64,000 nt of DNA, from positions 1-64,000 of the forward strand of contig NZ_LWAF01000006.1 in assembly GCF_001719065.1 (NCBI RefSeq), in the 5' to 3' direction. The notes under the pieces were generated by a model. The model was not told where the DNA came from, ran no database searches, and worked only from the letters and a program-made list of their open reading frames with translations. Shown piece by piece: positions 8,677 through 33,212 of this stretch. Each line of letters starts with the position of its first letter. The first letter of the stretch is position 1. This stretch comes from Fervidobacterium thailandense (GTDB lineage Bacteria > Thermotogota > Thermotogae > Thermotogales > Fervidobacteriaceae). The position numbers and the translations under genes were made by a program.

Positions 8677-8711
8677 TCGAATGTAAAAGAAAGTGATTAA
8701 ATCACTTCAGG

Positions 8712-8741
8712 AATGCTCCGCCTCCGGCGGAGCATTTTTTT
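8712..8741 (+). terminator. Rho-independent terminator after porGDAB
   Basis: An 11-bp stem (8712-8722 with 8726-8736, TGCTCCGCC/GGCGGAGCA core) around a TCC loop runs into seven T (8735-8741). Confidence 0.93.
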
Positions 8742-8758: not shown

Positions 8759-8789
8759 TTGACACACCCAGGTGGCTTTATGATATAAT
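8759..8789 (+). promoter_or_regulatory. Promoter of lysine/DAP operon
   Basis: TTGACA at 8759-8764 and TATAAT at 8784-8789 (19-bp spacer; GATATA at 8782-8787 would give 17). About 70 bases downstream lies a leader ORF, then an attenuator, then asd. Confidence 0.75.
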
Positions 8790-8858
8790 TTGAGCAAGAA
8801 AACAAAAGATAGAAAATGAATCTGAAAGAAAACTGCTATTTAATGGAGGAAAAGTTGG

Positions 8859-8975
8859 ATGACAGGTTTGAAATGCTCCGAAATGAGAATTTTCGAAATT
8901 AACAAGAACATGTGCAAGAAAGCTAAACGCGGCTGCCCGCTGGGAAGTGGTCAGCCTGCGTTTGGCTTGGTATAA
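8859..8975 (+). CDS. Putative lysine-containing leader peptide of asd-dap operon
   Basis: A 38-codon ORF (ATG 8859, TAA 8973-8975) with GGAGG about 9 bases upstream. Five lysines fall at positions 5, 16, 20, 21 and 23, so four of eight consecutive codons 16-23 are Lys. It lies between the operon promoter and a strong terminator, and the first base-paired arm of the predicted antiterminator (8935-8943) starts 7 bases after the last Lys codon. The layout is that of a translated attenuation leader sensing charged tRNA-Lys. I recognise no homolog. The alternative is that the ORF is accidental and the region is a non-coding RNA switch. Confidence 0.45.
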   Translation: MTGLKCSEMRIFEINKNMCKKAKRGCPLGSGQPAFGLV

Positions 8976-9043
8976 AGGCTAAAGCAGGCAAAGGCCGAAA
9001 AATACCAGCGGGCTACAGTATAAAAACTGTAGCCCGCTTTTTT
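8935..9043 (+). promoter_or_regulatory. Transcription attenuator: competing antiterminator and terminator
   Basis: The terminator is a 12-bp perfect stem AGCGGGCTACAG (9007-9018) with CTGTAGCCCGCT (9027-9038), followed by T through 9043. Its 5' arm can instead pair with an upstream segment: GCCCGCTGG (8935-8943) is the exact complement of CCAGCGGGC (9005-9013). Between these arms a further hairpin forms (8954-8959 with 8984-8989, and 8961-8967 with 8977-8983). Formation of the outer helix would prevent the terminator. The leader ORF's 3' half runs through this structure, so ribosome position could choose between folds. No lysine (L-box) or T-box core motifs are visible. Confidence 0.65.
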
Positions 9044-9097
9044 ATTAGGAGGTAATCTTTCATTTCCGATTATCACAAAAGGAAGGAGGAGAGGTGT

Positions 9098-10093
9098 ATG
9101 CGTATTGCGATAGTGGGAGCAACTGGCGCGGTTGGTAGGAACATGGTAGCAGTGCTTGAGAACACTGAGCTGACTGTTGACGAACTCCACCTGTTTGCTT
9201 CAGAACGTTCCGCAGGGCAAAGACTAAGCTTCCGGGGGGTCGAACTGCCGGTCGAAAAACTGGCAGAAGACGTTTTTGCCCGAGGTTATGACTACGTCCT
9301 CTTCTCGGCAGGTTCTGACGTTGCGAAACATTTTGCCCCAATTGCCGCGCATTATAGCAACCTGGTAATCGACAACTCATCGGCTTTCAGGATGGATCCA
9401 GCCATACCCCTTGTTGTTCCAGAAATAAACGGGCATTTGTTGAGAGGTTATCGCGGGATCGTTGCGAATCCAAATTGCTCAACGATCCAAATGCTTCTGG
9501 CACTGTATAGAATTCACGACAGGTACCAACTTTCGGAGATATTCGTTTCAACCTACCAATCCGTTTCTGGTGCCGGTTACAAGGGGATTTCCGAATATGA
9601 ACAACAACTTGGAGGTGTTTACGAGCCGAGGGTCTTTGTAAAACAGATTGCCCACAACGTGATTCCTCTGATTGGTGATTTGAGAGACGATATTTCCCAA
9701 GAAGAATGGAAGATGATCAACGAAACCAGGAAAATTTTGAACTCGAGAGCGCTGAACGTTTACCCCACGACCGTAAGAGTACCGGTTCGAATTGGTCATT
9801 CCGAAGCGATCATAGCGCGAACGCTGTTCCCTATCATGTCGAAGGCCGATTTGATAGAGACCATCTCCAGCGGAGAAAATGTCGTGGTAACGGAGGATAT
9901 TGTAACCCCCGTTGATGTAGCGGGAAATGATTTGACATACGTATGTCGAATCAGGTTATTCGACGCGCACACGTTCGGTGCATGGGTCGTTGCGGACAAC
10001 TTGAGAGTCGGAGCAGCTACCAACGCTGTTCGGATCTTACTGAAGCACCTGAGTTTGAATTTATCACGCAACCAAGTGATGCAAAGCTGCTGA
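9098..10093 (+). CDS. asd: Aspartate-semialdehyde dehydrogenase
   Basis: Reduces aspartyl phosphate to aspartate semialdehyde with NADPH, the branch point to lysine/DAP, threonine and methionine. The 331-residue protein has the nucleotide-binding start RIAIVGATGAVGRNM and the active-site cysteine in IVANPNCSTIQM. The later segment RVPVRIGHSE supplies the catalytic histidine. GGAAGGAGG lies about 8 bases upstream of the ATG. It is the first structural gene after the attenuator. Confidence 0.95.
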   Translation: MRIAIVGATGAVGRNMVAVLENTELTVDELHLFASERSAGQRLSFRGVELPVEKLAEDVFARGYDYVLFSAGSDVAKHFAPIAAHYSNLVIDNSSAFRMDPAIPLVVPEINGHLLRGYRGIVANPNCSTIQMLLALYRIHDRYQLSEIFVSTYQSVSGAGYKGISEYEQQLGGVYEPRVFVKQIAHNVIPLIGDLRDDISQEEWKMINETRKILNSRALNVYPTTVRVPVRIGHSEAIIARTLFPIMSKADLIETISSGENVVVTEDIVTPVDVAGNDLTYVCRIRLFDAHTFGAWVVADNLRVGAATNAVRILLKHLSLNLSRNQVMQSC

Positions 10094-10107
10094 AAGAAGG
10101 GAAAGGG

Positions 10108-10914
10108 ATGGACGGTATTTTGCGCATTTCTCCGTACACCGCAACGGGTAATACATTTGTTGTCGTAGAGCTTTTGCGCGAATCAGCACTTACAGACGAA
10201 GAGAAGTCCCAAATTGTGATTGATGTTGTTGGCGAGAGGGATGGGGTCATTTTCGTCGAGCGTTCCGGTGAAGGTTTAAGTTTCCGGATGGACTATTTTA
10301 ACAGAGATGGAAGAAGGGCTGCGTTTTGTGGTAATGGTGCGAGGGTATTCGCAAGATATTTGCGGGATAAATATGGACTCTTTGGTGACCTTCGGTTTGA
10401 AACATCGGTTGGTTTCCTACACGCAATTGTCGGTGAAGAGGTCAAGGTAGAAATGCCAAGACCAAGAATTGATAGGGAAATTATGGAAGTTCTTGATGAC
10501 GTACCTCTTGTTGGGAAACTTGTAATCGTCGGTGTTCCACATTTAACTTTTAAAGTCACACACAAGGTTACCTACGAAAGGGTCTGGACGGAGGAAGATT
10601 TGTTCGAGCACTTGATGAAGTATGCTCCCGAGTTAAGACGCAAATACGACGCAAACGTAAATTTTTACCGCGTTCTTGCTACGGGACATATCAAAGTGCG
10701 TACCTACGAACGTGGTGTGGAACGTGAAACGTTTTCGTGTGGCTCGGGAGTAACCGCCTGCGCGTACGTTTATGCTATGGAAAATGTCTCCAGTCTGAAC
10801 CATAGTGAAACTCGTAATGGCTATGTTGTTCACGTTACCACTCGTGGAGGATTACTCAAGGTTCATTTTGAGACTGATGGACTCTATCTTTCGGGGGGTG
10901 TAGTGAATGAGTGA
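10108..10914 (+). CDS. dapF: Diaminopimelate epimerase
   Basis: Interconverts LL- and meso-diaminopimelate without cofactor. The 268-residue protein carries the two catalytic cysteines in FCGNGARVFARYL and FSCGSGVTACA, plus the N-terminal TATGNTFVVVE. The frame is open back to 9943, but that part lies over asd. The ATG at 10108 is 14 bases after the asd stop and has AAGG-type RBS sequence. Its end overlaps the dapA start by 8 bases. Confidence 0.93.
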   Translation: MDGILRISPYTATGNTFVVVELLRESALTDEEKSQIVIDVVGERDGVIFVERSGEGLSFRMDYFNRDGRRAAFCGNGARVFARYLRDKYGLFGDLRFETSVGFLHAIVGEEVKVEMPRPRIDREIMEVLDDVPLVGKLVIVGVPHLTFKVTHKVTYERVWTEEDLFEHLMKYAPELRRKYDANVNFYRVLATGHIKVRTYERGVERETFSCGSGVTACAYVYAMENVSSLNHSETRNGYVVHVTTRGGLLKVHFETDGLYLSGGVVNE

Positions 10915-11806
10915 TGTTAGGAGTTGGAAGATGTTCAGCGGCGTTGGTACGGCTATAGTTACGCCATTTAAGGATGGTGAAGTGGATTATCAAGCATACG
11001 AAAGGCTTGTCCGCTGGCAGGTGGAGAGTGGTGTTAGTGCCATCATCGTTGCGGGTACAACTGGCGAAGGTGCAACATTAACAGTTGACGAGAGAAACAG
11101 GTTAACTTCCTTGACGAAAGAAATTTGCGGGGCTGCTGTCCAAGTCATTGTAGGTACCGGGACAAACGATACACGAAAAACGCTCGAACTTTCAAAAAAC
11201 GCACAACAACATGGTGCAGATGCGGTGCTGATAGTGACTCCGTATTACAACAAACCAACACAGGAAGGTTTGTACGCACACTACAGATTCCTCTCCGAAC
11301 GACTCGATATTCCCATCGTTATTTACAACGTTCCCTCACGAACTGGCGTGAACATCTCTCCTGAAACCGTCGCACGCCTCGCGTCTGACTGTCCAAACAT
11401 CGTGGCAATCAAAGAAGCAAATCCCGATGTAAGTCAGTCAGACGAGATCTACCGTTTGACCCGTGGGATGAACTTCTACATATACTCGGGTAACGACGAT
11501 CGCGCATTCCATATGATGTGTGCTGGTGCCAAAGGTGTGATTTCCGTTGCCTCGAACGTCATACCAAGGGCGATGGTTGAGATGACACAGGCAGTTTTAA
11601 ATGGGGACGTGAAGACGGCTCTCGAGATTCACGTTAGGTACCTCAAGCTTATGAAATTACTCTTCATCGAAACCAACCCCATTCCTGTGAAGGCTATGCT
11701 TTCGCTCATGGGTTTTATCCAGAACGAACTCAGGTTACCACTTGTTCCCGCCTCTCAACAGACGATTGATAAGCTTTCGCAGGCTCTGAAGGAGTTGGGA
11801 ATATGA
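10907..11806 (+). CDS. dapA: 4-hydroxy-tetrahydrodipicolinate synthase
   Basis: Condenses pyruvate with aspartate semialdehyde, the first committed step to DAP. The 299-residue TIM barrel has GTTGEGATLTVDER, the triad tyrosine in TPYYNKPTQEGLYAHY and the Schiff-base lysine in IVAIKEAN. The ATG at 10907 follows GGGGGGTG. A second in-frame ATG at 10931 (MFSGVGTAIVTPF) is closer to the usual family start. The stop overlaps dapB by 4 bases. Confidence 0.95.
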   Translation: MSDVRSWKMFSGVGTAIVTPFKDGEVDYQAYERLVRWQVESGVSAIIVAGTTGEGATLTVDERNRLTSLTKEICGAAVQVIVGTGTNDTRKTLELSKNAQQHGADAVLIVTPYYNKPTQEGLYAHYRFLSERLDIPIVIYNVPSRTGVNISPETVARLASDCPNIVAIKEANPDVSQSDEIYRLTRGMNFYIYSGNDDRAFHMMCAGAKGVISVASNVIPRAMVEMTQAVLNGDVKTALEIHVRYLKLMKLLFIETNPIPVKAMLSLMGFIQNELRLPLVPASQQTIDKLSQALKELGI

Positions 11807-12462
11807 AATATGGTCTTGTTGGTGCGAAGGGTAAGATGGGGAAAGAGATAAGAGAACTTTTTTCAAGCCACGGGGATGATCTTGTTCTCGAAGTAGATGT
11901 TGATCATTTCGTAGAGAGGGGCATTCCCGAAGTTATCGTTGACTTTTCTTCCCCAAATGCCGTCCCAACTACCGTTGAATTATGTAAGAGATACTCGGCG
12001 CACTTAGTGATAGGAACAACCGCACTCACTCAAGAGCATTTTGAACTACTTCGGGAACTTGGCCAGCACGTTGCAGTTGTCCAAAGTTTCAATTTTTCCG
12101 AAGGAATAGCGATATTTCAGAAGTTGCTAAGAAACTTCTCTCGTCTGTTTACGGACTGGGATTGCTGGATTGTTGAAACACATCACAACCAGAAAAAAGA
12201 TGCACCATCTGGTACTGCCCTAATGTTAAAGCGCGAAGTTGGTAGAGAGGTCCCGATAAGTTCTTTGAGGATAGGTGGGATCTTTGGAGAGCATGTTGTT
12301 TACTTTGCCAACGCCAACGAAGTTTTCGAAATAAAACATTCGGCCTTATCACGGAAAGTTTTCGCAAGCGGTGCAAGAAAGGCTGCCCTCTTTTGTTTGA
12401 AGGCAAAGAAGGGATTCTACAACTTCCTCGATGTCCTCGAAGGAGGTATTGAGCATGGATAA
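11803..12462 (+). CDS. dapB: 4-hydroxy-tetrahydrodipicolinate reductase
   Basis: Reduces hydroxy-tetrahydrodipicolinate with NAD(P)H. At 219 residues it is shorter than the E. coli enzyme (about 270), as in Thermotoga. Motifs are [10 protein letters not shown] for nucleotide binding and [15 protein letters not shown] with the catalytic histidine/lysine region. It starts in the ATGA overlap with dapA and ends 8 bases inside the start of dapH. Confidence 0.93.
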
Positions 12463-13252
12463 AAACACGCACACGAATGCCTCGATGAACATCGTTCAAA
12501 AGCGCCCGAGCGAACTGACGAGCGAGGAGATAATAGAGCTTATTGCCAAGAGTAAGAAGAAGGATCTTGTGAGGGTGTACGCTTCTGGGAATTTTTCGGA
12601 TCCTGCGGTATTAGAAAATTTTGAAGGATACGGAAGCGAGTTTGAATTTGTCGGTGGAAAAGATTTCGGTGTTTTCTTTGGAAATTATGAATTTATCCGC
12701 CCCGTGCTCGAGAGTGGACTTGTTCACGCGTACAAAATGGAGTACCTGGCCAGACGTTCCGCAATCCCACTGTCGGATATTTCAAAATTCAACGCCCGAA
12801 TTGAGCCAGGTGCAATTATTCGAGAACACGTAGAAATAGGCGATAACGCCATCATCATGATGGGGGCGGTCATCAACATAGGAGCTGTCATCGGTGAAGG
12901 TACGATGATTGATATGAACGTTGTGGTCGGTGCCAGGGCGCGGATAGGTAAATACTGCCACATCGGCGCTGGTAGCGTTATTGCAGGCGTAGTTGAGCCA
13001 CCGAGTGCAAAACCGGTGGTCATAGGTGATCGTGTAGTCATTGGGGCCAACGCCGTTGTATTGGAGGGTGTAACGGTCGGAGATGGCGCAGTAGTTGCAG
13101 CTGGAGCTGTTGTTGTCAACGATGTACCACCACGTACAGTAGTTGCAGGTGTACCCGCCAGAGTTATAAAAACTGTCGACGAAAAGACCGAAAGTAAGAC
13201 GCAAATTTTGGAGATTCTCAGGGGAGATAGCAGCGGAGGTGGGCGGACTTGA
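12455..13252 (+). CDS. dapH: Tetrahydrodipicolinate N-acetyltransferase (DapH/DapD type)
   Basis: Acylates tetrahydrodipicolinate to keep it open-chain. The 265-residue protein has an N-terminal alpha domain and then hexapeptide repeats forming a left-handed beta-helix ([56 protein letters not shown]). The repeat order and C-terminal [11 protein letters not shown] fit the acetyl-CoA-dependent DapH branch better than succinyl-dependent DapD. I chose ATG 12455, preceded by AAGGAGG, over the longer frame that begins within dapB. Confidence 0.9.
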
Positions 13253-14460
13253 AGGTAATCGTCCAAAAGTACGGTGGATCCTCGGTTGCTGATCCGGAGA
13301 GAATCAAAAACGTTGCGAATCGCATCGCACGAAAAGTACGTGATGGATTCAAGCTAGTAGTTGTCGTCTCCGCCATGGGGAAGACAACGGATCAGTTAAT
13401 TGCACTTGCAAAGAGTGTTTCGGATCGACCAGATGAGAGGGAACTTGATATGTTGCTCACAACGGGTGAACAGGTCTCTTGCGCACTTGTGGCGATGGCT
13501 CTAAAGGATCTTGGAATTAGGGCCATATCTCTCAACGCTTTTCAGGCAAAAATACTAACAACCAGACACCACACAAACGCACGCATTTTGGATATAAGTC
13601 TGTCTCATCTCAAAGAATACCTCAAAGACCACGATGTGTTAGTCATCACTGGCTTCCAAGGTGTTACGGAAGATGGTCATTACACGACACTCGGTAGAGG
13701 AGGTTCCGATACATCTGCAGTAGCCTTAGCTGCGAAGCTGAAATGTGACTGTGAGATATACAGCGACGTTCCAGGAGTGTACAGTTGCGACCCCAAACTC
13801 GTTAACCGTCCAAAAAAGTGGCCCTACATCACATACGATGACATGCTCGAACTTGCAGCTACCGGTGCAAAAGTACTCCATTCGAGAGCGGTAGAAATTG
13901 CAAAGAAATATGGCGTCAAGATCTACTGTGGTTCATCCTTCACGGAAGAGGAGGGAACGTGGGTGGTGGACAGACTTCCAGAGTGGCTCGAAGAACCGGT
14001 CGTGACAGGTGTAAGTCTTGAGAGAAACCAAGTGAAAGTAACTATAACCGATTTGACCAACGATGCCGCGATCGTGTCAGATATTTTTAAGAGAGTTGCC
14101 GATAGAGGAATTAACGTGGACATGATTTCCTTGGTAAAGAACGGTGAAAGAACACACGTCTCATTCACGGTCGTGCCGGATAAACTCGATGGAATAAAAG
14201 AATTGCTTGATGATACTCTCAGTGATTACGGTGCGAAGTACCATTTCTTCGGTAGTTTTGCCAAAATCACGGTTGTAGGTACAGGGATGCGTTCAAGTTA
14301 CGGAGTAGCGTCAAAACTGTTGGAAATCTTGTCCGGAGAGGGAATAGAGCCGGAAATCGTGACTACTTCTGAAATAAAGATCTCCGTCCTTGTACCGGAA
14401 GAACACGCTCAAAAACTTGTGGAGAAAATATGTTACGCTTTTTCGCTTGTTGAGGAATGA
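13249..14460 (+). CDS. lysC: Aspartate kinase
   Basis: Phosphorylates aspartate, the entry step of the aspartate family pathway. The 403-residue protein has the kinase start [25 protein letters not shown], and two ACT domains after about residue 260 that usually mediate lysine/threonine feedback. The start is TTG at 13249 after GGAGGTGGG and overlaps the dapH stop by 4 bases. Its placement at the end of the operon, after dapH, fits co-regulation with the lysine branch. Confidence 0.93.
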
Positions 14461-14503
14461 CCTGAGATGACGGATAAGTTCAAAGATGGGCGGAGGGACG
14501 AGG

Positions 14504-15628
14504 ATGTCGTATCTTGCCGACACGTACGTCAGATTTCCGATCAAGGTGCGTAACGCGTTGGGAATAAAAATTTGGGATATTGATGGCAACGAGTACATCG
14601 ATACCTTCATGGGTATCGGTGTGCTCCTCTTTGGACACAACCATCCCGGTGTTGTTCAAGCCATGAAAGAAAAAATCGAACGGTACGTGCACCTGTCGAA
14701 TTTCTTCCTCGATGAAGATGCGGAACACGTTGCACGTAGACTCATTTCCGAAACAGGGAAGAATGGGAAAGTATTTTTTACAAATTCTGGAACGGAGAGT
14801 ACCGAATGCGCGCTTAAGGTGATTGCAAAGTTCAGAAAGAAATATAAGCAGAAGGGTAAGATATTGAGCTTTGTCAGAAACTTTCATGGGAGAACCTCGG
14901 GAGCGTTAAGAGTTACGGGTTTTGAGAAGATTAGAACTCCTTTTTTAGAAGAGGACACGGAAGTTGTATTTTTGCCGTACGACGTTTCAGAGGTTGAGGA
15001 GTTTTTGAAGAGCAAGTTGGTCGATGCAGTGTTTCTCGAGGTTGTTCACGGAAGCGGCGGGCTTGACGCGATACCTGTTGAGATAGTTGAAGTTATTAAA
15101 TTTTACCAAAAAGAGCGTGGTTTCATCCTCGTTGCAGACGAAGTCCAAAGTGGGCTTGGGAGAACCGGAAAATTCTACGCTTATCAACACTACGATTTAG
15201 ATCCAGACATAGTAACCGTTGCAAAAGGAATCGGAGGAGGTCTCCCACTGGGAGCCTGTCTGATGCTTGGTCAATTGGCTGACGTTTTCGAAACAGGTGA
15301 ACACGGATCAACGTTTGCACCTAATCCCGTAGCGTTGGCTGCGGGACGCGTTATACTGCAGATGATAACTCCGGAGCTCCTTGAACACGTCACAAGGATG
15401 GGAGAAGTTTTTCAAAAAACATTCTCGAAATTCGGTACAGTGCGTGGCTTGGGATTAATGCGCGGTGTGGAGTTGGAAAAACCGGTGACGAAGGACGAAT
15501 TCTTAAGCGAAGGATTATTGGTCAACATCGTTGGAGAAAGAATACTCAGGTTCTTATTGCCCCTAAACGTTTCTGAGGATGAAATTTCCGAAATTGCCCA
15601 ACGCTTGGGCAGAGTCCTGCAAGGGTAA
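14504..15628 (+). CDS. Class III aminotransferase, probable N-acetyl-LL-DAP aminotransferase
   Basis: A 374-residue PLP enzyme of the acetylornithine/ornithine aminotransferase group. Motifs are NSGTESTECALKVI, FHGRTSGALRVTG, LVADEVQSGLGRTG and the PLP lysine in VTVAKGIGGGLPLGA. By position at the end of the DAP operon after DapH, the likely reaction is amination of N-acetyl-oxo-pimelate to N-acetyl-LL-DAP. Acetylornithine aminotransferase is the alternative. GGAGGG lies 6 bases before ATG 14504, whereas the frame start at 14486 lies upstream of that site. A deacetylase to finish the acetyl route is not in the window. Confidence 0.85.
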   Translation: MSYLADTYVRFPIKVRNALGIKIWDIDGNEYIDTFMGIGVLLFGHNHPGVVQAMKEKIERYVHLSNFFLDEDAEHVARRLISETGKNGKVFFTNSGTESTECALKVIAKFRKKYKQKGKILSFVRNFHGRTSGALRVTGFEKIRTPFLEEDTEVVFLPYDVSEVEEFLKSKLVDAVFLEVVHGSGGLDAIPVEIVEVIKFYQKERGFILVADEVQSGLGRTGKFYAYQHYDLDPDIVTVAKGIGGGLPLGACLMLGQLADVFETGEHGSTFAPNPVALAAGRVILQMITPELLEHVTRMGEVFQKTFSKFGTVRGLGLMRGVELEKPVTKDEFLSEGLLVNIVGERILRFLLPLNVSEDEISEIAQRLGRVLQG

Positions 15629-20044: not shown

Positions 20045-20122
20045 AAAATTGAATAGATTTTTGGCCAATTTTTCTTAACGCAGAAGTAATCTGTGTGTTA
20101 TCAGAAAGTCGGTGGAAAAGCA

Positions 20123-21481
20123 ATGAGACTCTTTCAGCATCAATTAGAAGCAATTGACTCATGGAAAGCTGCAAACTACAGAGGCATTATATCAATGGCA
20201 ACAGGCACTGGAAAAACGTACACTGCTATAGGTTGCGCAGATTTGATCTTTAAGCAGCTGGATAGAGCTATTTGTTTCATTACGGTACCTTACAAGCATT
20301 TAATAGGTCAGTGGAGGGAGTCTATTACTAAATACGACCTCCAGCATGATTTGATAATTGAATGTCATTCGGAGAACTCAAATTGGCCTCGTCAACTAGT
20401 CAAAGTCATTCCAAAAATCGTGATAGGTCAGTTTTCGAAAGTAATAGTGATTTCGACCCACTCGTCACTTGTTTCAGAGAAAATGACGCGGATAATAACG
20501 AACATACCACAAAGTATCAAAAAAATACTAATTGCGGACGAAGTTCACGGAATGGGGTCTGAGAAAAGGAGAAATAATCTCCCACACTCGTTTGATTATA
20601 TCCTCGGACTTAGTGCGACTCCAAAAAGAATGTATGATGAAATAGGGAACCGGTTTTTGAAGAGTTTTTTTGGCGATATAATATACGAGTTCCCTCTGTG
20701 CAAAGCGGTTTATGAATTGAACGTTGTAACCAACAAGACGTATCTAACGCCATATTATTATTACCCAATAAAGATTTCCCTTAACGCGGAAGAAAGTGAA
20801 AGGTATTTCTTTCTCACGAGGAAAATAGTAAATTTGATCAAAAAGAAAGGAATAGACTTGTCCACAGCCAGCTTGGAAGATCTGGAAACGGCCAATATAG
20901 AAGACTTAGAAAGATTGCTTTTCAAGAGGAGTGAAATAATAAAGACCGCAAGTGAGAAGATCGAGAAATTGCCGGAAATCCTACGTAAGATCCAGGATAG
21001 ACAAGGTGATCTGAAAGATACGATTCTGTTCACTCATGAGAAGATCATCGACAAAGTCATAAGGGTTGTTGAAAGTACGCACGCGACATACAGGAGATTT
21101 ACGCAAGAATTATCCTTGAAGGAGCGGGAGCAGATTTTGGATGCATTCAAAAAGGGACATATTGACGTTCTCATTGCTATCAAAATTCTCGACGAAGGAG
21201 TGGATATACCATCCGCAAAAAACGCAGTCATAATTTCAAGCACCACGAACCCTCGAGAATATATTCAAAGATTGGGACGAGTCTTACGACCATCCGAGAA
21301 TAAACCTTTAGCTTACATATACGATTTTGTAGTTCTGGATTCTCTCAAAATGTTCTCTAACAGTCCAGAGCTACATACTTTGGAAGAAAAATTTGCAAGA
21401 TCCGAACTTCTTAGGGTCAGAGTAATTGCCGAATGTTCTTTAAACGGAATAAATGCGGTTACTGACGTCTTCCGGTGGTAA
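20123..21481 (+). CDS. SF2 DEAD/DEAH helicase, restriction-type
   Basis: A 452-residue superfamily 2 helicase. Motif I is MATGTGKTYTA (about residues 24-34), motif II is ADEVH (about 138-142), motif III is LGLSATP, and motif VI is YIQRLGRVLRP after DEGVDIPS. No nuclease domain is visible. The architecture resembles helicases found beside dnd phosphorothioation clusters (the family named DNA phosphorothioation system restriction enzyme) and type III/I translocases; this is from memory of the families. ATG 20123 has GGTGGAAAAG upstream, while the longer frame would start with GTG at 20093. First gene of a tight six-gene operon. Confidence 0.85.
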   Translation: MRLFQHQLEAIDSWKAANYRGIISMATGTGKTYTAIGCADLIFKQLDRAICFITVPYKHLIGQWRESITKYDLQHDLIIECHSENSNWPRQLVKVIPKIVIGQFSKVIVISTHSSLVSEKMTRIITNIPQSIKKILIADEVHGMGSEKRRNNLPHSFDYILGLSATPKRMYDEIGNRFLKSFFGDIIYEFPLCKAVYELNVVTNKTYLTPYYYYPIKISLNAEESERYFFLTRKIVNLIKKKGIDLSTASLEDLETANIEDLERLLFKRSEIIKTASEKIEKLPEILRKIQDRQGDLKDTILFTHEKIIDKVIRVVESTHATYRRFTQELSLKEREQILDAFKKGHIDVLIAIKILDEGVDIPSAKNAVIISSTTNPREYIQRLGRVLRPSENKPLAYIYDFVVLDSLKMFSNSPELHTLEEKFARSELLRVRVIAECSLNGINAVTDVFRW

Positions 21482-21498
21482 TCACGGAGGTGGAGGGA

Positions 21499-21708
21499 AT
21501 GATATTTGAAAGGGATAAAATTTTTGATACTTTGGAGGCCATAGTGGATGAGTATTACGAAAGGAACAACGGGCTTCCCATAACAAAGGAACAAATGAAA
21601 AAATTAGCTTACGAATGCTACTATGCATACATTTCAAATCCTGAAAATCCCAGGGAAGTTACGAAGAAGATGGTTAAGCTCATTGAACAGACGGTCGATG
21701 AAGAATGA
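21499..21708 (+). CDS. Small acidic helical protein of defence operon
   Basis: A 69-residue protein I do not recognise. It is acidic and predicted helical (IFDTLEAIVDEYYERNNGLP, then EVTKKMVKLIEQTVDEE) with no cysteines besides one. ATG 21499 has GGAGGTGGAGGG upstream, and the frame sits between the helicase (17-base gap) and the SMC-like gene (23-base gap). The spacing and strong RBS make it a real operon member. It may be a subunit linking helicase and ATPase; that is inference. Confidence 0.7.
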   Translation: MIFERDKIFDTLEAIVDEYYERNNGLPITKEQMKKLAYECYYAYISNPENPREVTKKMVKLIEQTVDEE

Positions 21709-21731
21709 TTAAGTGATTAGAGGTGATTATT

Positions 21732-23669
21732 TTGAGACTCAAAGGTTTAACTATCAAGAACTACCGGCAATTTCTGGATGTATCCCTTAGGTTTGATAAA
21801 ACGTCTGAATACGACTTCCACGTCTTGGTGGGGAAACAGGGAGTCGGAAAGACGAATCTCATAGACAGTATAACCTGGCTTTTGTACGGTCGGGAGTTTT
21901 TTTCAAGAATTACGCGGCCAGATGAAAGTAGCATACTGAACTGGAATTTGCTCAGATCTAACACTCAAAAGCATACTGTGAGTATTAGAGGTGTGTTCGA
22001 AGATCGTTTAGAAAAAAGGGAGATTATTATAACGCGCACGGCCACGATAGGAATATCAAGCGAAGACGGGAAACCGTATTTATACGAAGATGGTTTAACA
22101 TTCTTAGGTGCAGGGGGAAATAGTGAAATAACTAAGTATAAGGCAGACGCTCAAATGTCCATTGACTCGTACTTCCCTCCGCTTGTTAGTGACCATTTCT
22201 TTTTTGATGGGGAAAGCCTTGATACGTACTTTGCGGCCACAAGCGGACGGAAGATTAAAGAGGTTATTCAGAAACTGAGTCACATAGAAAAAATTGAAAA
22301 CATAAAAAAGATACTACAAAACGAAGTGAGTGAAGGCTTTACAAAGATGATAAAGGCTGAAAGAAAAAGGGAAGCAGAGTTATCAAATCTTCAGCGAGAG
22401 TTTCAAGAGGTTCGAAAGGAGATCGAGAAAGCAGAGGAAGAAAAAGAAATCTTAGAGAAACAGATCCAGGAAGCGAAAAAGGAACTGAAAAACCTGAACG
22501 CTCAAATTCAAAAGTACCAGCAAGCTGAAGAACTTCGTAAGAGGCTCGAAGAGCTAAAGAACACTATTTCGATGCTCGACATTGAAAGAAACGGACTTCT
22601 TCGACAGAGACTGAAGAAGCTTATAAACTTATCAATCCTTGTATTTGGATTTAAAGGGCTAAGGTGCATTGAGAAAGAAGCTGACACTGGGATAGAATTT
22701 TTAAGACACTTACCCAAAGAGTACGTGCAGAAGGCTATAGAAGAGAATGTCTGCCCTACATGTCGTAGGGAACTTCCTTCGTTTCAAAAGAAACTCTTAC
22801 AATCTATTCTGTTCGATGAGAGTTTTATCATTTCGGAAGAGAAATATCAACAAAAACTTTTGGAGATCAAGAATCTCAAGGACGAAATCTTTGAATTAAA
22901 TAAGCAACTGGGTATGAAAACAAAACAAATTGAGATCGAGAAAAGTAGGTTGCAGGAGATCAGAGAAAGACTCGAAAATCAGCCAAATCTTGACGAGGCG
23001 AGTAAAATAAGGATGAAAATTGAAACACTCGATTATCAAAAAGAAATGATGGAGAGAAATCTTGGGAGAATCGAAGAGACGATCAGTAGACTCAGGACCA
23101 AGAGAAAGGAAATAGAAAATAGAATGATGGAAATTCTCAGGGAGGATCAAAAAAACAGAAAACTGGAAGAAAAGATAACCGTAGTTTCCATATTATCAGA
23201 AATATATGAACAGTTAGCATTAAGGCGAAGAGAGGAAATTAGAAAGGAAATCGAATGCTCCTTGAATAAACTGATCAAAGAAATGATGTGGAAGAAAGAA
23301 CTTATCGAGTTCGTTGAAGTAACAGAAGAATTTGATGTGATTCCAAGGGATGCTGAAGGTCGAAACATACTTTACGATCTCTCTGGTGGGGAAAGATCAC
23401 TATTAACACTTGCTTTCGCGCTGGCGCTTCATAACAGTGCAGGTATCCAAGTCCCAATCTTTATTGATAGACCTCTGACAAACGTATCAGGCGAGTCATT
23501 TGAGTATGTGCTCGAGGTGTTAGCTGAAATGTCCAAATCAAGGCAAATATTTATAACATTAACCGACAAGGAATTTGAGTTATCAAAAGAACTTCTTTTT
23601 GACATCTCATCTACAATCCACAAAATGGAAATCACGAACAACGAGGCAACGATCCAGAGAATAAAATAG
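21732..23669 (+). CDS. DndD-like SMC/Rad50-type ATPase with CxxC hook
   Basis: A 645-residue ABC-type ATPase. Walker A is LVGKQGVGKTNLIDSI near residues 31-46. Long coiled coils (about 190-330 and 370-490) flank a zinc-hook motif CPTC near residue 341. The signature LSGGERSLLTLAFALAL (about 547) and the Walker B region VPIFIDRPLTNVS close the C-terminal lobe. The layout and the start (LKGLTIKNYRQFLDVSLRF) match DndD of DNA phosphorothioation systems and other RecF/SbcC-like defence ATPases. TTG at 21732 has GAGGTG 6 bases upstream; GTG at 21723 is the alternative. No dndA, dndC or dndE lies nearby. Confidence 0.8.
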   Translation: MRLKGLTIKNYRQFLDVSLRFDKTSEYDFHVLVGKQGVGKTNLIDSITWLLYGREFFSRITRPDESSILNWNLLRSNTQKHTVSIRGVFEDRLEKREIIITRTATIGISSEDGKPYLYEDGLTFLGAGGNSEITKYKADAQMSIDSYFPPLVSDHFFFDGESLDTYFAATSGRKIKEVIQKLSHIEKIENIKKILQNEVSEGFTKMIKAERKREAELSNLQREFQEVRKEIEKAEEEKEILEKQIQEAKKELKNLNAQIQKYQQAEELRKRLEELKNTISMLDIERNGLLRQRLKKLINLSILVFGFKGLRCIEKEADTGIEFLRHLPKEYVQKAIEENVCPTCRRELPSFQKKLLQSILFDESFIISEEKYQQKLLEIKNLKDEIFELNKQLGMKTKQIEIEKSRLQEIRERLENQPNLDEASKIRMKIETLDYQKEMMERNLGRIEETISRLRTKRKEIENRMMEILREDQKNRKLEEKITVVSILSEIYEQLALRRREEIRKEIECSLNKLIKEMMWKKELIEFVEVTEEFDVIPRDAEGRNILYDLSGGERSLLTLAFALALHNSAGIQVPIFIDRPLTNVSGESFEYVLEVLAEMSKSRQIFITLTDKEFELSKELLFDISSTIHKMEITNNEATIQRIK

Positions 23670-23714
23670 CTACAATGCGTTCTGCGAAGATTATCAGGAG
23701 TGCGGGGTGTTAGA

Positions 23715-24176
23715 ATGTCGCAAGAGAAGTTTATAATATTCAGGTTATCGCAAAAGAATAACGAGAAACTTGATGAGCTTTATAAATCCATTGACAGAGA
23801 GTATAAACCAGAAATCTCAAAGTTCATGTTGTATGCTGTGGCCGCAGCGTACGCTTTCTCGATGGAAAAGAGAGAACCTGTGAGTGAGCCAGTCGATATC
23901 GCAAGAGGTGAATTCTTAGCACGTCCTGAGTATCAGAACGTATCTCTTTTAATTGAATCGATCTGGGCGTACAAAAAAGATGTGATTTCAGGGATAGACA
24001 AGTATCGCCTCTTTGAAGAATATGCAAATGCTGGTGCGAATTTGCTTTACGAACTCTTCAAAGATTCTGAGGAAGATTTAGAGCATTTTATCGATAATTT
24101 TGAGCTACGTGTATTAGAGGAAATACAAAATAATCCGTTCCTTAAGGAAGAATTATCAAGATTCGGGGAGGAATGA
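23715..24176 (+). CDS. Small protein resembling phosphorothioation-associated protein 4
   Basis: A 153-residue alpha-helical protein. The pattern KFMLYAVAAAYAFSMEKREP, then LLIESIWAYKKD and FEEYANAGANLLYELF, resembles what I recall of the dnd system-associated protein 4 family (alanine-rich helix, REP, then EEYANGG). That is a motif-level resemblance, not a search result. It is translated just ahead of Mod (3-base gap) after a GGGGTG RBS. A role as an adaptor between the SMC ATPase and the methylation/restriction subunits is inference. Confidence 0.65.
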   Translation: MSQEKFIIFRLSQKNNEKLDELYKSIDREYKPEISKFMLYAVAAAYAFSMEKREPVSEPVDIARGEFLARPEYQNVSLLIESIWAYKKDVISGIDKYRLFEEYANAGANLLYELFKDSEEDLEHFIDNFELRVLEEIQNNPFLKEELSRFGEE

Positions 24177-24179
24177 ACA

Positions 24180-26732
24180 ATGCATGTTCTTCAACAGAAG
24201 TATGAGCGAGAATTTTACAAGGCTCTTGAAGACATATTCATCGGTGAACGTCTCGAAGGACAATCTGGGTACATAAATTTGCTGAAGATAAAGAGTAGTT
24301 ATTACACCAACGTGATCAAGCCAGAACTTGAAAAATTCATAAACGACAAGCTGCTTGATAAGGGAATAGAAGATTTCAGAGAAGAGCTTTTTGAAAAGCT
24401 TTACACCTTTTTCAAGCGTTACTTCAGCGAGAGCGGATCAATATACTTTACTTACACTCCATGGAGTGAAAGGGTTTATGAACGAATTTATGACCCCGAA
24501 AAAGACGTCGCGCTCTTTTGGAAAACCTATATGCTTTATTATGTGAAGTCGGAAAGACTTTACAAAAGCCTTGAGCTACAGATTAAGGGCGAAAACGGGA
24601 AAGAATTCACGATATACTTCGATGCTACGGAAATAGAACACCAAAAGGCAAACGAAAAAAGAGAACTCATTTACGAATTTGACAAGGTGGAGAACGGTAA
24701 AATCTTTCTAAAGTGTAAGATTTCTGAGAAGGGAAGAAAAACGAAAGAAGAGGAAATTGTGAAAGAAATATCAAACAACGGTTTAAGAGACATAACTACG
24801 GATGATATAGAAAGGGCAATTAGAATATTTGAAAAACAGTCGGAAGTGGACTTTTTCATAAACAAGGATGCTGAACAGTTCTTGAAAGAACAGCTTGATA
24901 TGTTTATCTATCAGTACATGTTCAATCAAAAAAACGTCTGGGGTATCAAGAGAATAAACGAAATTCAAACTTTTAAAGAAGTAGCGGAGAAGATTATCGA
25001 ATTCATAGCTCAGTTCGAAAACGAACTTGTAAAAATATGGAATAAACCCAAGTTAGTGTTCAACTCGAACTATGTTATCACCCTCGATAGAATCGCCAAA
25101 GTTGACAGAGATTTCAGAGTAATCAATAAAATTGTTAACCATCCAAACATTCACCAACAAATAGAAGAATGGAAAGAACTCGAGCTTGTTGACGAAGATT
25201 TCAAAATAGAACATTTAGTTAACTCCGAAAGTATTTTCGGAGGCTTAAATGACAGATATAAGTTTCTCCCGATTGATACGAAATATTTTAAAGACATTGA
25301 AGTGGAACTCTTAGAGCTGTTTGATAACCTGGATGACCAACTCGACGGAGTTTTGATAAAGAGTGAAAACTATCAAGCGCTGAACACCATACTAAGAAAA
25401 TACAAAGAAAAAGTACAAACAATATACATCGATCCACCGTTTAACAAAGGGCAGGATGCGGATTACTTTTACAAAGTTAATTACAAGGATGCTACTTGGA
25501 TAACAATGCTCGAGAATCGAATAAGACTTGCAAAAGAGTTATTGAACGAAAGGGGAAGTATTTTTGTTAGGTGCGATTATAATGGGAATATGTATGTAAG
25601 GCTTTTGATGAATGAGATATTTGGAGAAGAGAATTTCAGGAACGAGATAAGTGTGCGAAGGTTTAAGAAAAACATTATGGATAGACTTGTAAAAAAACTT
25701 CCAGAAGCTATTGACACCATTTATACTTATTCAAAAGTTGCTGAGAAATTTTATTACGAAAATCCTTTAAAAGAGAGGCAGGTTATAAGAAAAGGTTTTT
25801 GGAGGCACATGGACGATTCGTCAGGTCAAGGAACCCCAAAATCGTTTTTCGGAAAAATTTTAGAACCACCCGCAGGAAAACATTGGAAATTCTCTCAAGA
25901 GAAAATCGATAAAATGATCGACGAGGGGAAAATTATTCTGCAATGTAGGAATTGTGGTTACGTACATGACAAGAGCAAGGGGCTTTGGACTGCATGTCCG
26001 GTTTGTGGGAAAGACGATCCGGAACCAAAATACTGGGTTGAAGAAAGTTCCGACGAAGTTCTCGATTCAAACTGGACAGATATTTACGGATATTCGACAG
26101 GTTGGAACTTCCCTACTGAAAATTCCGAGCTGCTCCTCAAACGTGTAATCGAATGTGCCTCGAAACCTCGAGATCTGGTCATGGACTTCTTCCTTGGTTC
26201 TGGAACAACTACCGCAGTGGCTCACAAGCTTGGAAGGAAGTGGATAGGAATTGAAATGGGAGAACATTTCTATACGGTTGTTCTTCCACGTATGAAGAAA
26301 GTCTTGGCTTATGATAAGTCCGGTATATCAAAGGAAAAAGATGTGAAGGAGTTTTACAACGAAAAGAATGCGGGTGGCTTCTTTAAGTATTACGAACTTG
26401 AACAATACGAAGAGGTGTTGAGAAACGCTAAGTATATACATGGAGATATTAGTCTACAACCACGTCCTGGAAAAGACGCGTTTAACGAATATGTCTTTAT
26501 GAGAGATCCAAAGTTCGTAGAAGATGCCATCGTTAAGGATAGTGATAAATTTAAAGTTGACCTGACGAGAATTTATAAAGACAAAGTCGTTGATATACCA
26601 GAAACTATTTCCAACGTAACTGGAAAGAAAATTAAGAAAATTTCTAAGGATTACTTTGTTCTTGAGGACATCGGTATGATCCGGTATGACGATATTCCTC
26701 TTGAATATGTTAAAGAATTAATTTGGTGGTGA
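24180..26732 (+). CDS. mod: Type III DNA-methyltransferase (Mod)
   Basis: An 850-residue adenine-N6 methyltransferase that should modify the island's recognition site. Motif IV is YIDPPFNKGQDADYF near residue 417 and motif I is MDFFLGSGTTTAVAHKLG near 668, the beta-class order expected for type III Mod. Between them, in the target-recognition region, is a zinc ribbon CRNCGYVH...ACPVCGK (about 587-610). The first about 390 residues are a long N-terminal extension, larger than in classical Mod. GGGGAGG precedes the ATG. Res follows 5 bases downstream. Confidence 0.93.
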   Translation: MHVLQQKYEREFYKALEDIFIGERLEGQSGYINLLKIKSSYYTNVIKPELEKFINDKLLDKGIEDFREELFEKLYTFFKRYFSESGSIYFTYTPWSERVYERIYDPEKDVALFWKTYMLYYVKSERLYKSLELQIKGENGKEFTIYFDATEIEHQKANEKRELIYEFDKVENGKIFLKCKISEKGRKTKEEEIVKEISNNGLRDITTDDIERAIRIFEKQSEVDFFINKDAEQFLKEQLDMFIYQYMFNQKNVWGIKRINEIQTFKEVAEKIIEFIAQFENELVKIWNKPKLVFNSNYVITLDRIAKVDRDFRVINKIVNHPNIHQQIEEWKELELVDEDFKIEHLVNSESIFGGLNDRYKFLPIDTKYFKDIEVELLELFDNLDDQLDGVLIKSENYQALNTILRKYKEKVQTIYIDPPFNKGQDADYFYKVNYKDATWITMLENRIRLAKELLNERGSIFVRCDYNGNMYVRLLMNEIFGEENFRNEISVRRFKKNIMDRLVKKLPEAIDTIYTYSKVAEKFYYENPLKERQVIRKGFWRHMDDSSGQGTPKSFFGKILEPPAGKHWKFSQEKIDKMIDEGKIILQCRNCGYVHDKSKGLWTACPVCGKDDPEPKYWVEESSDEVLDSNWTDIYGYSTGWNFPTENSELLLKRVIECASKPRDLVMDFFLGSGTTTAVAHKLGRKWIGIEMGEHFYTVVLPRMKKVLAYDKSGISKEKDVKEFYNEKNAGGFFKYYELEQYEEVLRNAKYIHGDISLQPRPGKDAFNEYVFMRDPKFVEDAIVKDSDKFKVDLTRIYKDKVVDIPETISNVTGKKIKKISKDYFVLEDIGMIRYDDIPLEYVKELIWW

Positions 26733-26737
26733 GTGGT

Positions 26738-29713
26738 ATGCCTAAGACAGCATCGAAGAGAACGAGTTCAGAACTACAAGTATACACTCTCCTTCAATTG
26801 TTCGTTGAGGAAAATTTACCCCAGTTTGAGGACTTGCCCCCAGAGTGGAATAATATCGACATAGTAGGGTTCTCAAAGAACAAAACTTTATGGGACTTCC
26901 AAATCAGAGCAATCAAAAATGCCATAAGGTTGCTCTACTTCTATTATCACGAGCTGGAAGGAGACAAGGACAGTTTCTACGAGGCTCTGAAGGCATCAAC
27001 AGATCTTCAAAAATACGAAAAGAATCTTGACATTTACCCAAAAGATGGGGAGATATGGAAGGTTTTGAATAAGTATTTTTACGCCTTAGATGAGAGAATC
27101 CCATTCTCAAATATTTCCAATCGCATGAATTTTTGGATGGCAACGGGTAGTGGTAAGACGGTAGTCATAATTAAGCTAATCGATATACTCGTAACTTATA
27201 TGGAACGGGGTTTGATTCCAAAGAGAAATATTCTATTTTTGACGTATAGGGACGATTTAATTGAGCAGTTTAAGACGCATTTCAAAGAATTCAAACCTCA
27301 GAGCTCTAAACAGTTGTTTCTGAGCGATTTGAAAGAGTTTCACAAGTTGAAACAGTACGGCTCTGATTTCACTACTTTTCCTATTTTCTACTATCGTTCG
27401 GACAATATTTCCGACGAACAGAAAGATAAGATAGTTGATTACACGTTCTACGAAAATAACGGTGAATGGTACATCATCCTTGATGAGGCTCACAAGGGTG
27501 ACAAGGAATCAAGTAAGAGACAACAATACTTCGCCATTATGGCGAGAAATGGCTTTCTGTTCAATTTTTCCGCGACTTTTACAGATTTTCGTGATATTAT
27601 AATGACCGTCTTTGAATTTAACTTGTCGACATTCATCAAGGAGGGATACGGAAAGGAGATAAGAATTTTCAATGAAAACGTGAAACTCCACAAGGAGAAA
27701 TTGGAGGAAGCCGATTTTACTGATCTCGAGAAAAATAAAGTTTTTCTTAAGAATTTAATTCTCCTCGCTTACCTGAAAAAGAACCTTGAAAAGGTTAGGA
27801 AGTTGAGTTTTAAAGACAAAAACTTTTATTATCATTCTCCCTTGCTTATCTATCTTGTGAACTCGGTAAATGTTGATGATTCTGACTTGGAGATTTTAAT
27901 TCGGATTTTAACAAACTTTGCAAGTGAGGATACTTATAAAAACTTGCTGACCTCGGAAGTTTTTCAGGAAGCCAAAAGAGAGCTAATATCTAGTACTCCT
28001 ATTGATCCGTTCGATTCGGCAAATGATTCCATTGAAGGCCTTAACCGAGAGGAACTTGAGAAGTTGTCTGGCACTGATATATTAAACTTTGTCTTTAATG
28101 CCCAAACACCTGGCGAAATCGAAATAATAAAGTCAACCTCAAAAAAGGAGATCGCTTTGAAGTTGATGACATCGGACAAGCCATTTGCACTTGTTCGTAT
28201 CGGTGATGCATCTCCACTTATTGATAAAATTAAGCAGTATAAAGACGTCTACATTCAGGAAAGATTCGAAAGCGACGATTTCTTTTCTAATTTGGAAAAC
28301 GATGAAAATATTAACATTCTCCTTGGTTCACGAGCCTTTTATGAAGGTTGGGACAGCAACAGACCGAACATAATCACGTTTGTGAACATTGGTCAAGGAA
28401 CGGATGCAAAGAAATTTATCTTGCAATCGATTGGGAGAGGTTTAAGGATAAAACCCTTCAAAGATGATGATGTTAATAGGAAACGGTTGTCCGATAACGC
28501 CTCTTTGATACGCTACAAACACTTACTTAAACCACTGGAAACACTATTCGTCTGGGCAACTAAAAAAGACGCTGTTAGAACCGTAATTACTGAAGTTAAA
28601 AACTTCATTACCGAGAGCGGTGAAAGAATTTCACTTAAAAAGAACCGGGAAAGAATCGATGGTAAAACGATCTATATCCCAGTGATTCAAAAAGTACAGT
28701 TAAAAGACCGAAAGGCTGACCTTTCTAAATTACCGAAAATGACACTAAACATATCTGATTATAACGACGTAATCACAGTGTGCAACTCTACTTCCGACGA
28801 AATGTTATATTTCAAGTTCTTTTACAACAGCCAATGCCCAGTTAGGGATATAGAGCTCTTGAGAACAATCCTGTCTGAGTCTAACAGGGGAAAATTTATA
28901 TCAAAGAGTCTTGATGAGAATAGGATAGGCTGGGAAAGAGCTCTGGAGAAGATTGCAAAGAATATAAAAAGGAATGTTGATTATCTCTATCAAGTCGACG
29001 TTGACTCTAACGATGATGAGTATATCGTTCATTACAAAAACATAGTAATTCGACTACCCGACAAGGAAAAAGTGCAGACAGTTAAAGAAAAGATCGAGGA
29101 ATATCTTGTGAAAGAACACAGTCACGCTCCAGATCGTCAGGAGGTAACTCTCGCCGGAAAGAGTGAAGTTTTATTGATTGAGTTTTTGAAAGAGCATTAT
29201 TACATACCGATTCTCGAATCTCTTGATAGCACTAGTTTATCGGGTAGGATCAGTTATTTAATAAAGCACGACAGCGAACGGAAGTTCATTGAGGAACTCA
29301 AGCAGGCTTCAAGTGAACTGGCTAAACAATTAGGAGAAATCTGGTGGATCTTCAGTAAGATTGTAGAAAACGTTGATAAAGTGTACATTCCATATGACGA
29401 CAACGGAGTGGAGAGATTCTTTTATCCTGATTTCATCTTTTGGTTCAACAAGGATGACCGATATGTGATAGTTTTTGTTGACCCCAAGGGAACTGAGCAT
29501 ACTGTGGCAGAAAGAAAAATTGATGGGTTTGAAAACTTGTTCATAGAAAATGGTAAGTGCAAAGTGTTCAGCAACGGTAGTACGCGAATCATTTTCAAAC
29601 TTTATTTTTACAACAAAGATGCGATCAGCTCAAAAAAATATCGTGACTATTGGGTTAGCTCAGCGGATGAAATATTCCAACAGGTTATAGACATTTTAAA
29701 CAGCGACTGGTAA
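26738..29713 (+). CDS. res: Type III restriction enzyme (Res)
   Basis: A 991-residue restriction subunit with SF2 helicase motor and C-terminal nuclease. Walker A is MATGSGKTVVI (about 134), motif II is ILDEAHKG (about 247), motif III is NFSATF, and motif VI is SIGRGLRI. Near residues 895-917, YPDFIFWF and VFVDPKG form a PD-(D/E)XK-type nuclease site. ATG 26738 was chosen over TTG 26723, which overlaps the mod stop. It is the last gene of the six-gene operon, with a terminator about 150 bases downstream. Confidence 0.93.
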   Translation: MPKTASKRTSSELQVYTLLQLFVEENLPQFEDLPPEWNNIDIVGFSKNKTLWDFQIRAIKNAIRLLYFYYHELEGDKDSFYEALKASTDLQKYEKNLDIYPKDGEIWKVLNKYFYALDERIPFSNISNRMNFWMATGSGKTVVIIKLIDILVTYMERGLIPKRNILFLTYRDDLIEQFKTHFKEFKPQSSKQLFLSDLKEFHKLKQYGSDFTTFPIFYYRSDNISDEQKDKIVDYTFYENNGEWYIILDEAHKGDKESSKRQQYFAIMARNGFLFNFSATFTDFRDIIMTVFEFNLSTFIKEGYGKEIRIFNENVKLHKEKLEEADFTDLEKNKVFLKNLILLAYLKKNLEKVRKLSFKDKNFYYHSPLLIYLVNSVNVDDSDLEILIRILTNFASEDTYKNLLTSEVFQEAKRELISSTPIDPFDSANDSIEGLNREELEKLSGTDILNFVFNAQTPGEIEIIKSTSKKEIALKLMTSDKPFALVRIGDASPLIDKIKQYKDVYIQERFESDDFFSNLENDENINILLGSRAFYEGWDSNRPNIITFVNIGQGTDAKKFILQSIGRGLRIKPFKDDDVNRKRLSDNASLIRYKHLLKPLETLFVWATKKDAVRTVITEVKNFITESGERISLKKNRERIDGKTIYIPVIQKVQLKDRKADLSKLPKMTLNISDYNDVITVCNSTSDEMLYFKFFYNSQCPVRDIELLRTILSESNRGKFISKSLDENRIGWERALEKIAKNIKRNVDYLYQVDVDSNDDEYIVHYKNIVIRLPDKEKVQTVKEKIEEYLVKEHSHAPDRQEVTLAGKSEVLLIEFLKEHYYIPILESLDSTSLSGRISYLIKHDSERKFIEELKQASSELAKQLGEIWWIFSKIVENVDKVYIPYDDNGVERFFYPDFIFWFNKDDRYVIVFVDPKGTEHTVAERKIDGFENLFIENGKCKVFSNGSTRIIFKLYFYNKDAISSKKYRDYWVSSADEIFQQVIDILNSDW

Positions 29714-29859
29714 GGAAAATCAGCTCCGTACACCGCAGGACTGTCAAGGAGGACTCAAATAACTTTCAGAAACCAAACAAGAATGGGATTAACTTCGAAA
29801 GGCGATCAACAGTCACCACAAAAGTCGGAAGGAAAGTTCTGTAAACGAGCGGAACAATT

Positions 29860-29897
29860 AAGCCCCGCCTGGGGCTTTAAATTTTTAAATTTTTGTT
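29860..29897 (+). terminator. Terminator after res
   Basis: AAGCCCC (29860-29866) pairs with GGGGCTT (29871-29877) around GCCT, followed by T- and A/T-rich sequence. It lies just before the IS element. Confidence 0.7.
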
Positions 29898-29919
29898 TTG
29901 CGCACAACCTCATAAGTCA

Positions 29920-31023: not shown

Positions 31024-31175
31024 AGGCTGACCTCCCATCCTGGAAGGAATTTGGTAGTACGATAAAAGGGGATGTTAGATGTTTTAATTATATCAAACAG
31101 GATGGAGGCAGCCTCTATTCTTTTTAGAGCTCCATCTGTATTGTTTTGTTTCTCTACCTGGTAAGTATGTCCACA
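29943..31175 (-). mobile_element. Insertion sequence with terminal inverted repeats
   Basis: Near-identical ends define the element: TGAAGACATATTTACCAG at 29943-29960, and TGTGGACATACTTACCAG read inward on the minus strand from 31175 (15 of 18 identical). The ends begin TG and finish CA. The transposase stop lies just outside the left repeat boundary as drawn, so the true edge may be a few dozen bases further out. No clear target duplication was found, although ATTCGTG-GCAGTT-like sequence occurs on both sides (29925-29939 and 31179-31190). It separates the type III operon from mcrBC. Confidence 0.7.
31097..31139 (-). other. Hairpin in IS between terminal repeat and transposase
   Basis: ACAG and ATGGAG (31097-31107) pair with CTCCATCTGT (31130-31139), with an inner CTCT/AGAG helix. 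Positioned upstream of the transposase, it could block translation or transcription entering from outside, as known for several IS families. The related relic at 39144-39239 lacks it. Confidence 0.45.
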
Positions 31176-31204
31176 CCTATTCGTGCAGTTCATGAAGAAA
31201 TCCT

Positions 31205-31234
31205 TTGACTTTTACAATATTTTTATGATACAAT
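31205..31234 (+). promoter_or_regulatory. Promoter of mcrB-mcrC
   Basis: TTGACT (31205-31210) and TACAAT (31229-31234) with an 18-bp spacer and a TGn extension. It lies 30 bases outside the IS right end, so the McrBC pair keeps its own promoter despite the insertion. Confidence 0.6.
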
Positions 31235-31345
31235 GGTTTTGTAATTTCTTGCTTGCTTGATAGTGAGAAGACCATCTTGGAAGCGTTTAAACAATTGCCA
31301 TTCTGAACATTTTAAATTGCTACTAATTCAACGGGGGAAGAGGAT

Positions 31346-33187: not shown

Positions 33188-33212
33188 ATCATCGTAAACG
33201 AAGGGACGTTAA

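Follow-up and report, generated by a model that had tools for sequence, protein, structure and literature searches.

A putative ribosome-mediated lysine attenuator in the place of the lysine riboswitch upstream of the asd-dap operon of two Thermotogota genera

Background

Bacterial lysine operons are known for riboswitches that sense lysine directly. Leader-peptide attenuation has been described for other amino acids, chiefly in Proteobacteria and Actinobacteria and in a few Firmicutes.

The attenuator specificities given in one survey are His, Leu, Thr and Trp plus Ile/Val and Phe, without Lys; the same survey reports the lysine riboswitch in 'most' Thermotogales, acquired with the operon (PMC3766115). 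Leader peptides were previously known in Proteobacteria and Actinobacteria, to which His leaders in bacilli have been added (PMC2965389). A survey of Actinobacteria includes no RNA element for lysine (PMC1262725). SEP5 of Sinorhizobium meliloti is a translated sORF that carries a cluster of six Thr and three Lys codons, precedes an aspartate-pathway gene and was suggested to encode a leader peptide (PMC10117765).

The window (the whole stretch of 64,000 nucleotides analysed here, from Fervidobacterium thailandense) carries a short ORF with Lys codons and a terminator upstream of a lysine operon. A translated lysine attenuator had been proposed at this place in an initial annotation, in which translated Lys leaders were said to be unfamiliar. 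The literature search agrees, as it found no lysine leader-peptide attenuator earlier than this one besides the suggested Sinorhizobium Thr/Lys sORF (the comparative survey of Lopatovskaya et al., 2010, lay outside the search, and an earlier mention is possible).

Like the trp, his, thr, leu, ilv and phe leaders, the leader of the window combines a short ORF enriched in end-product codons with mutually exclusive pairings (1:2, 2:3 and 3:4) and a terminator located before a biosynthetic operon. It differs from them by its Lys codons, by its host (Thermotogota), by its stop codon (located in the 2:3 loop and not between regions 1 and 2) and by the unusual invariance of its core, including the terminator stem. 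It shares with SEP5 a short ORF with Lys codons before an aspartate-pathway gene; SEP5 has mainly Thr codons and belongs to another phylum, and the passage describing it reports neither terminator nor antiterminator (PMC10117765). Judged from sequence comparison and folding, the element very probably is a classical four-region, ribosome-mediated (trp-type) transcription attenuator that would sense charged tRNA-Lys.

Organization of the leader and of the operon

The features of the leader and of the genes downstream are given in Table 1. The asd-dapF-dapA-dapB-dapD-lysC-argD-type operon encodes the acetyl-DAP route to lysine.

Table 1. Features of the putative lysine attenuator and of the downstream operon in the window
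Feature	Position	Strand	Characteristics
Promoter-like TTGACA and TATAAT (a)	8759-8764 and 8784-8789	+	spacer 19
Shine-Dalgarno GGAGG of the leader ORF	8845-8849	+	sequence; 9 nt 5' of ATG
Leader ORF (b)	8859-8975	+	38 codons/38 aa, MTGLKCSEMRIFEINKNMCKKAKRGCPLGSGQPAFGLV*; precedes terminator and asd
Putative regulatory Lys codons AAG AAA (GCT) AAA	8916-8927	+	K20, K21, K23; sequence and comparison
Hairpin 1:2	8922-8941 with 8946-8966	+	19 bp; -34.1 kcal/mol; antiterminator arm inside the stem
Antiterminator 2:3, outer arm (b)	8935-8943 / 9005-9013	+	exact 9-bp complement
Antiterminator 2:3, middle helix	8948-8952 / 8993-8997	+	
Antiterminator 2:3, inner helix	8954-8968 / 8976-8989	+	
Antiterminator 2:3, loop	8969-8975	+	7 nt; stop codon at its end
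Intrinsic terminator 3:4 (b)	9007-9019 / 9026-9038, to 9044	+	13-bp stem, then U-tract TTTTTATT
asd, aspartate-semialdehyde dehydrogenase	9098-10093	+	first operon gene; NCBIfam NF011456, 348 bits, above cut-off
dapF	to 10914 (operon remainder, 9943-15628)	+	above curated cut-off
dapA	10907-11806	+	above curated cut-off
dapB	11803-12462	+	above curated cut-off
dapD, acetyl type	12431-13252	+	above curated cut-off
lysC, aspartate kinase	13249-14460	+	above curated cut-off
argD-type aminotransferase	14486-15628	+	TIGR00707, 353 of 410 bits, below cut-off

a An alternative pair with a spacer of 17 runs from the same TTGACA to GATATA (8782-8787). A stricter promoter scan left out the TTGACA/TATAAT pair because of its spacer. 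A comparable TTGACA-TATAAT pair is found upstream of most homologous leaders. b The leader ORF with its ribosome-binding site, its four Lys codons among codons 16-23 (16, 20, 21 and 23) and the exact 9-bp arm had been given in the initial annotation and are found as described there. The terminator stem had been given as 12 bp; it comprises 13 bp, and all other coordinates hold.

A strong terminator upstream of the leader (8709-8739) closes a pyruvate/2-oxoacid ferredoxin oxidoreductase operon. A weak GcvB-like Rfam match (8690-8741) covers this terminator and was judged to be due to chance.

Elsewhere in the window, a defence-like island (20093-34793) has a lower G+C content (about 0.38-0.40 versus 0.46). 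It includes helicase and SMC-like proteins with strong matches to PADLOC PbeA and PbeC, a McrB/McrC-like pair and a type III methyltransferase whose partner is restriction-like. A transposase-like protein (29920-31038, minus strand), in which a helix-turn-helix and an integrase-like part were recognized by eye, is encoded between the type III restriction gene and the McrBC-like pair.

Conservation of the leader ORF

Relatives were located via asd. A homologous leader precedes asd, in one copy per genome, in nine genomes belonging to the genus of the window (g1) and to a second genus of the same family (g2). Its core, AAAGCTAAACGC[A/G]GCTGCCCGCT-NNNN-[A/G]GTGGTCAGC[T/C]TGCG, occurs exactly once in each of these genomes and was not found by motif search in the other 94 Thermotogota genomes. 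Two g2 assemblies lack a match to the leader; they are 81% and 60% complete, and in one of them the contig breaks off inside asd, asd itself being missing from the other. A wider search of contigs with asd retrieved only distant asd genes, all from outside Thermotogota, and the leader comparison did not draw on it.

The N-terminal parts of the nine leaders are too diverged to be aligned. The frame is open in all of them (0 stops in 193 codons, versus 51 in 386 for the other two frames of the same stretch), and all have a start codon with a purine-rich stretch on its 5' side; a Shine-Dalgarno core of the GGAGG or GAGG type is found in most leaders and is weaker in two of them (G001 and G004). 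The stop codon lies exactly 54 nt past the first invariant Lys codon in 9/9 leaders, despite varying codons upstream of the stop. The C-terminal 14 residues of the peptide are near-identical in the nine genomes. Start, open frame and fixed stop are thus found before a biosynthetic operon in nine leaders, as in trp-type attenuators, and the same frame is kept at the same position across nine genomes of two genera, far beyond chance. By comparative criteria, the leader ORF is real.

The window ORF has Lys codons at positions 5, 16, 20, 21 and 23. AAA-GCT-AAA, which includes two of them, is invariant (9/9 leaders). At the third Lys position, the leaders show either a synonymous AAG/AAA exchange or a shift by one position, and one leader (G006) has K-A-K alone, without a third Lys in the control window (the last Lys codon and the six codons before it, directly 5' of the structured core). 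Lys accounts for 28 of 63 residues in the control windows and for 5 of 283 elsewhere in the nine leaders (Fisher 6e-19); when the invariant K-A-K is removed, the counts are 10/36 versus 5/148 (4e-5). Both values are indicative, these sequences being related. As in trp-type attenuators, codons for the product are concentrated in the leader, in this case Lys codons before a lysine-synthesis operon.

The ORF could have arisen by chance ahead of an ordinary terminator, one short ORF with few Lys codons being not rare in an A+T-rich region; the fixed stop and fixed Lys codons kept in nine genomes of two genera refute this explanation, whose probability is next to nil. The check proposed in the initial annotation, conservation of the ORF and of its Lys codons in relatives, gave the opposite of a refuting outcome. 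The translated lysine attenuator proposed there had been understated: all nine genomes keep the frame, the start, the place of the stop and two of the Lys codons, and further Lys codons are concentrated at this place.

Mutually exclusive RNA folds

The fold of 8799-9046 has a z-score of -6.9, and none of 200 shuffled sequences was equally stable. The pairings 1:2, 2:3 and 3:4 were found by folding and comparison to be mutually exclusive, as in trp-type attenuators. The 3' arm of the terminator contains GCCCGCT, the same heptamer as 8935-8941 in the antiterminator arm, so that the two arms compete for the same 5' arm. The antiterminator hairpin carries the stop codon in its loop, a location that the model of the initial annotation requires. 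Hairpin 1:2, which hides the antiterminator arm and was missing from that annotation, is the most stable competitor fold.

MAFFT misaligned region 3; pairs were therefore counted in hairpin 1:2 only, and a swap test served to assess the antiterminator. In hairpin 1:2, 99.4% of the cells (nine sequences) are paired, versus 25-44% in slid controls. Covariation is sparse, with only nine sequences and a core so invariant that 1:2 shows a single compensatory pair (A-U to G-C at 8931/8956). In the swap test, region 3 of the window (g1) gave -45.5 kcal/mol with its own region 2 and -30.8 to -38.4 kcal/mol with g2 regions 2; region 2 of the window gave -27.4 to -35.4 kcal/mol with g2 regions 3. The cognate sum was reached by 225 of 5040 permutations, which makes this a weak test, the regions being largely interchangeable within g2.

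The near-identity of the C-terminal 14 residues could point to a nascent peptide, KAKR-S/G-CPL-x-GGQ-L/P-AF, that, on a signal such as lysine, stalls the ribosome from within the exit tunnel. However, two-way RNA pairing already demands conservation of the peptide. Moreover, the A-U to G-C change replaces Ser by Gly and Leu by Pro: both residues change while the 1:2 pair persists, which indicates that the RNA pair, not the peptide, is kept. Such an arrest is very improbable.

The terminator stem GCGGGCTACAG / CTGTAGCCCGC (9008-9018 / 9027-9037) is identical in the nine leaders and is found nowhere else in these genomes. Its upper part (TACAG/CTGTA) is invariant in all nine, although the competition between folds has no need of this half; this may reflect slow divergence under a strong constraint on stem stability or may be the sign of a second function. 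Invariance without a need for competition would also suit an alternative fold controlled in trans by an RNA-binding protein or a small RNA. Such control would leave the open frame and its Lys codons unexplained and is considered extremely improbable. The near-invariant core and terminator are shared by two genera while the flanking leader has diverged past alignment, and both may do a second job besides translational sensing of lysine; for example, the terminated leader RNA (about 247 nt) could be stable and act in trans, or the peptide could sense lysine or the ribosome directly. This addition to the trp-type attenuator is regarded as unlikely.

Proposed mechanism of attenuation

From the ORF, its Lys codons, the position of its stop codon and the exclusive folds, all of them present and conserved in the leaders compared, we infer translation of the leader, stalling, a response to lysine, termination and the direction of control. 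Region 1 would correspond to 8922-8935 (on and just past the Lys codons), region 2 to 8935-8968 (containing the antiterminator arm), region 3 to 8976-9013 (after the stop codon) and region 4 to the 3' arm of the terminator. Under lysine shortage, the ribosome would wait with K20 or K21 in its A site and cover region 1; the 2:3 pairing would then remove the 5' arm of the terminator, and RNA polymerase would enter the lysine operon. When lysine is ample, the ribosome would reach the stop codon within the 2:3 loop, where it would block region 2 and so lead to the terminator; if it departs instead, 1:2 would refold, again leading to the terminator.

Equilibrium folding of the full leader prefers the terminator in every state, as it does for E. 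coli trpL. The choice of fold must therefore be kinetic (the folding calculation does not simulate kinetics) and, full-leader folding being uninformative, shortened transcripts were used. Their quasi-equilibrium folding was calibrated with trpL, whose sequence was verified against public genomes; the ribosome was represented by a mask of 30 nt with K21 in the A site. Means for the nine leaders, taken two bases short of the complete terminator stem and covering variation between individual leaders, were as follows. At 37 C, the antiterminator reached 0.64 with the mask at K21, versus 0.21 without ribosome and 0.33 with the ribosome at the stop codon; at 65 C, the values were 0.72, 0.14 and 0.29, respectively. 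The direction is that given by trpL, whose shorter transcripts show more antiterminator when the ribosome is stalled at the second Trp codon. When 1:2 was set as preformed in the same calculation, the arm was unavailable and the terminator formed.

A mask at K23 covers part of the antiterminator arm, and the fit is consequently good for K20 and K21 only, whereas G006 has K-A-K alone at this place. These points speak against the model, as does another: with a ribosome at the stop codon, the outer arm of the antiterminator alone could still pair.

Replacement of the lysine riboswitch

No covariance-model match to the lysine riboswitch (L-box, RF00168) above the gathering score was found in the leader of the window or in any g1 or g2 genome, and no T-box match was found in the leader of the window or in homologous leaders; T-box leaders also read tRNA charging. 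By contrast, a strong Rfam lysine riboswitch precedes asd, at the same place before the same asd-dap operon, in the nine genomes examined from sister genera of the same family (g3, g4 and g5). All g3-g5 genomes searched have it, as do a related family (f3) and Thermotoga maritima, which served as control. Judged by kinship (Thermotogota with riboswitch-bearing sister genera), g2 is probably Fervidobacterium and g1 a close relative of it. Another family without L-box (f2) was considered as a second case and rejected: its asd homologue is distant (about 35% identity), the neighbouring genes differ, and no intergenic leader can be seen.

The presence of a lysine riboswitch before the same operon in sister genera, together with a core that is very highly conserved at the nucleotide level, third codon positions included, would fit a new metabolite-binding riboswitch that senses lysine or a pathway intermediate independently of translation, the ORF being a by-product. 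Pairing in exclusive helices nevertheless accounts for most invariant core positions and leaves little conserved unpaired sequence for a binding pocket; no Rfam riboswitch or T-box is matched; and the open frame, the fixed stop and the concentration of Lys codons 5' of the structured core would go unexplained. A new riboswitch is judged quite improbable.

The best explanation of these sequences is that a trp-type Lys attenuator took the place of the riboswitch before asd, a replacement missing from the initial annotation. The Asd tree separates the g1 and g2 genomes included in it from g3-g5; since the tree is split in this way, the simplest reading would be a single replacement in the ancestor shared by g1 and g2.

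Significance

If the proposed mechanism is correct, lysine and a thermophilic phylum would join leader-peptide attenuation. The two genera would then provide a clean swap, for the same operon and within one lineage, in which a sensor of the metabolite lysine gave way to a sensor of Lys-tRNA charging. As the sister genera keep the riboswitch, the costs and benefits of the two sensors would be directly comparable.
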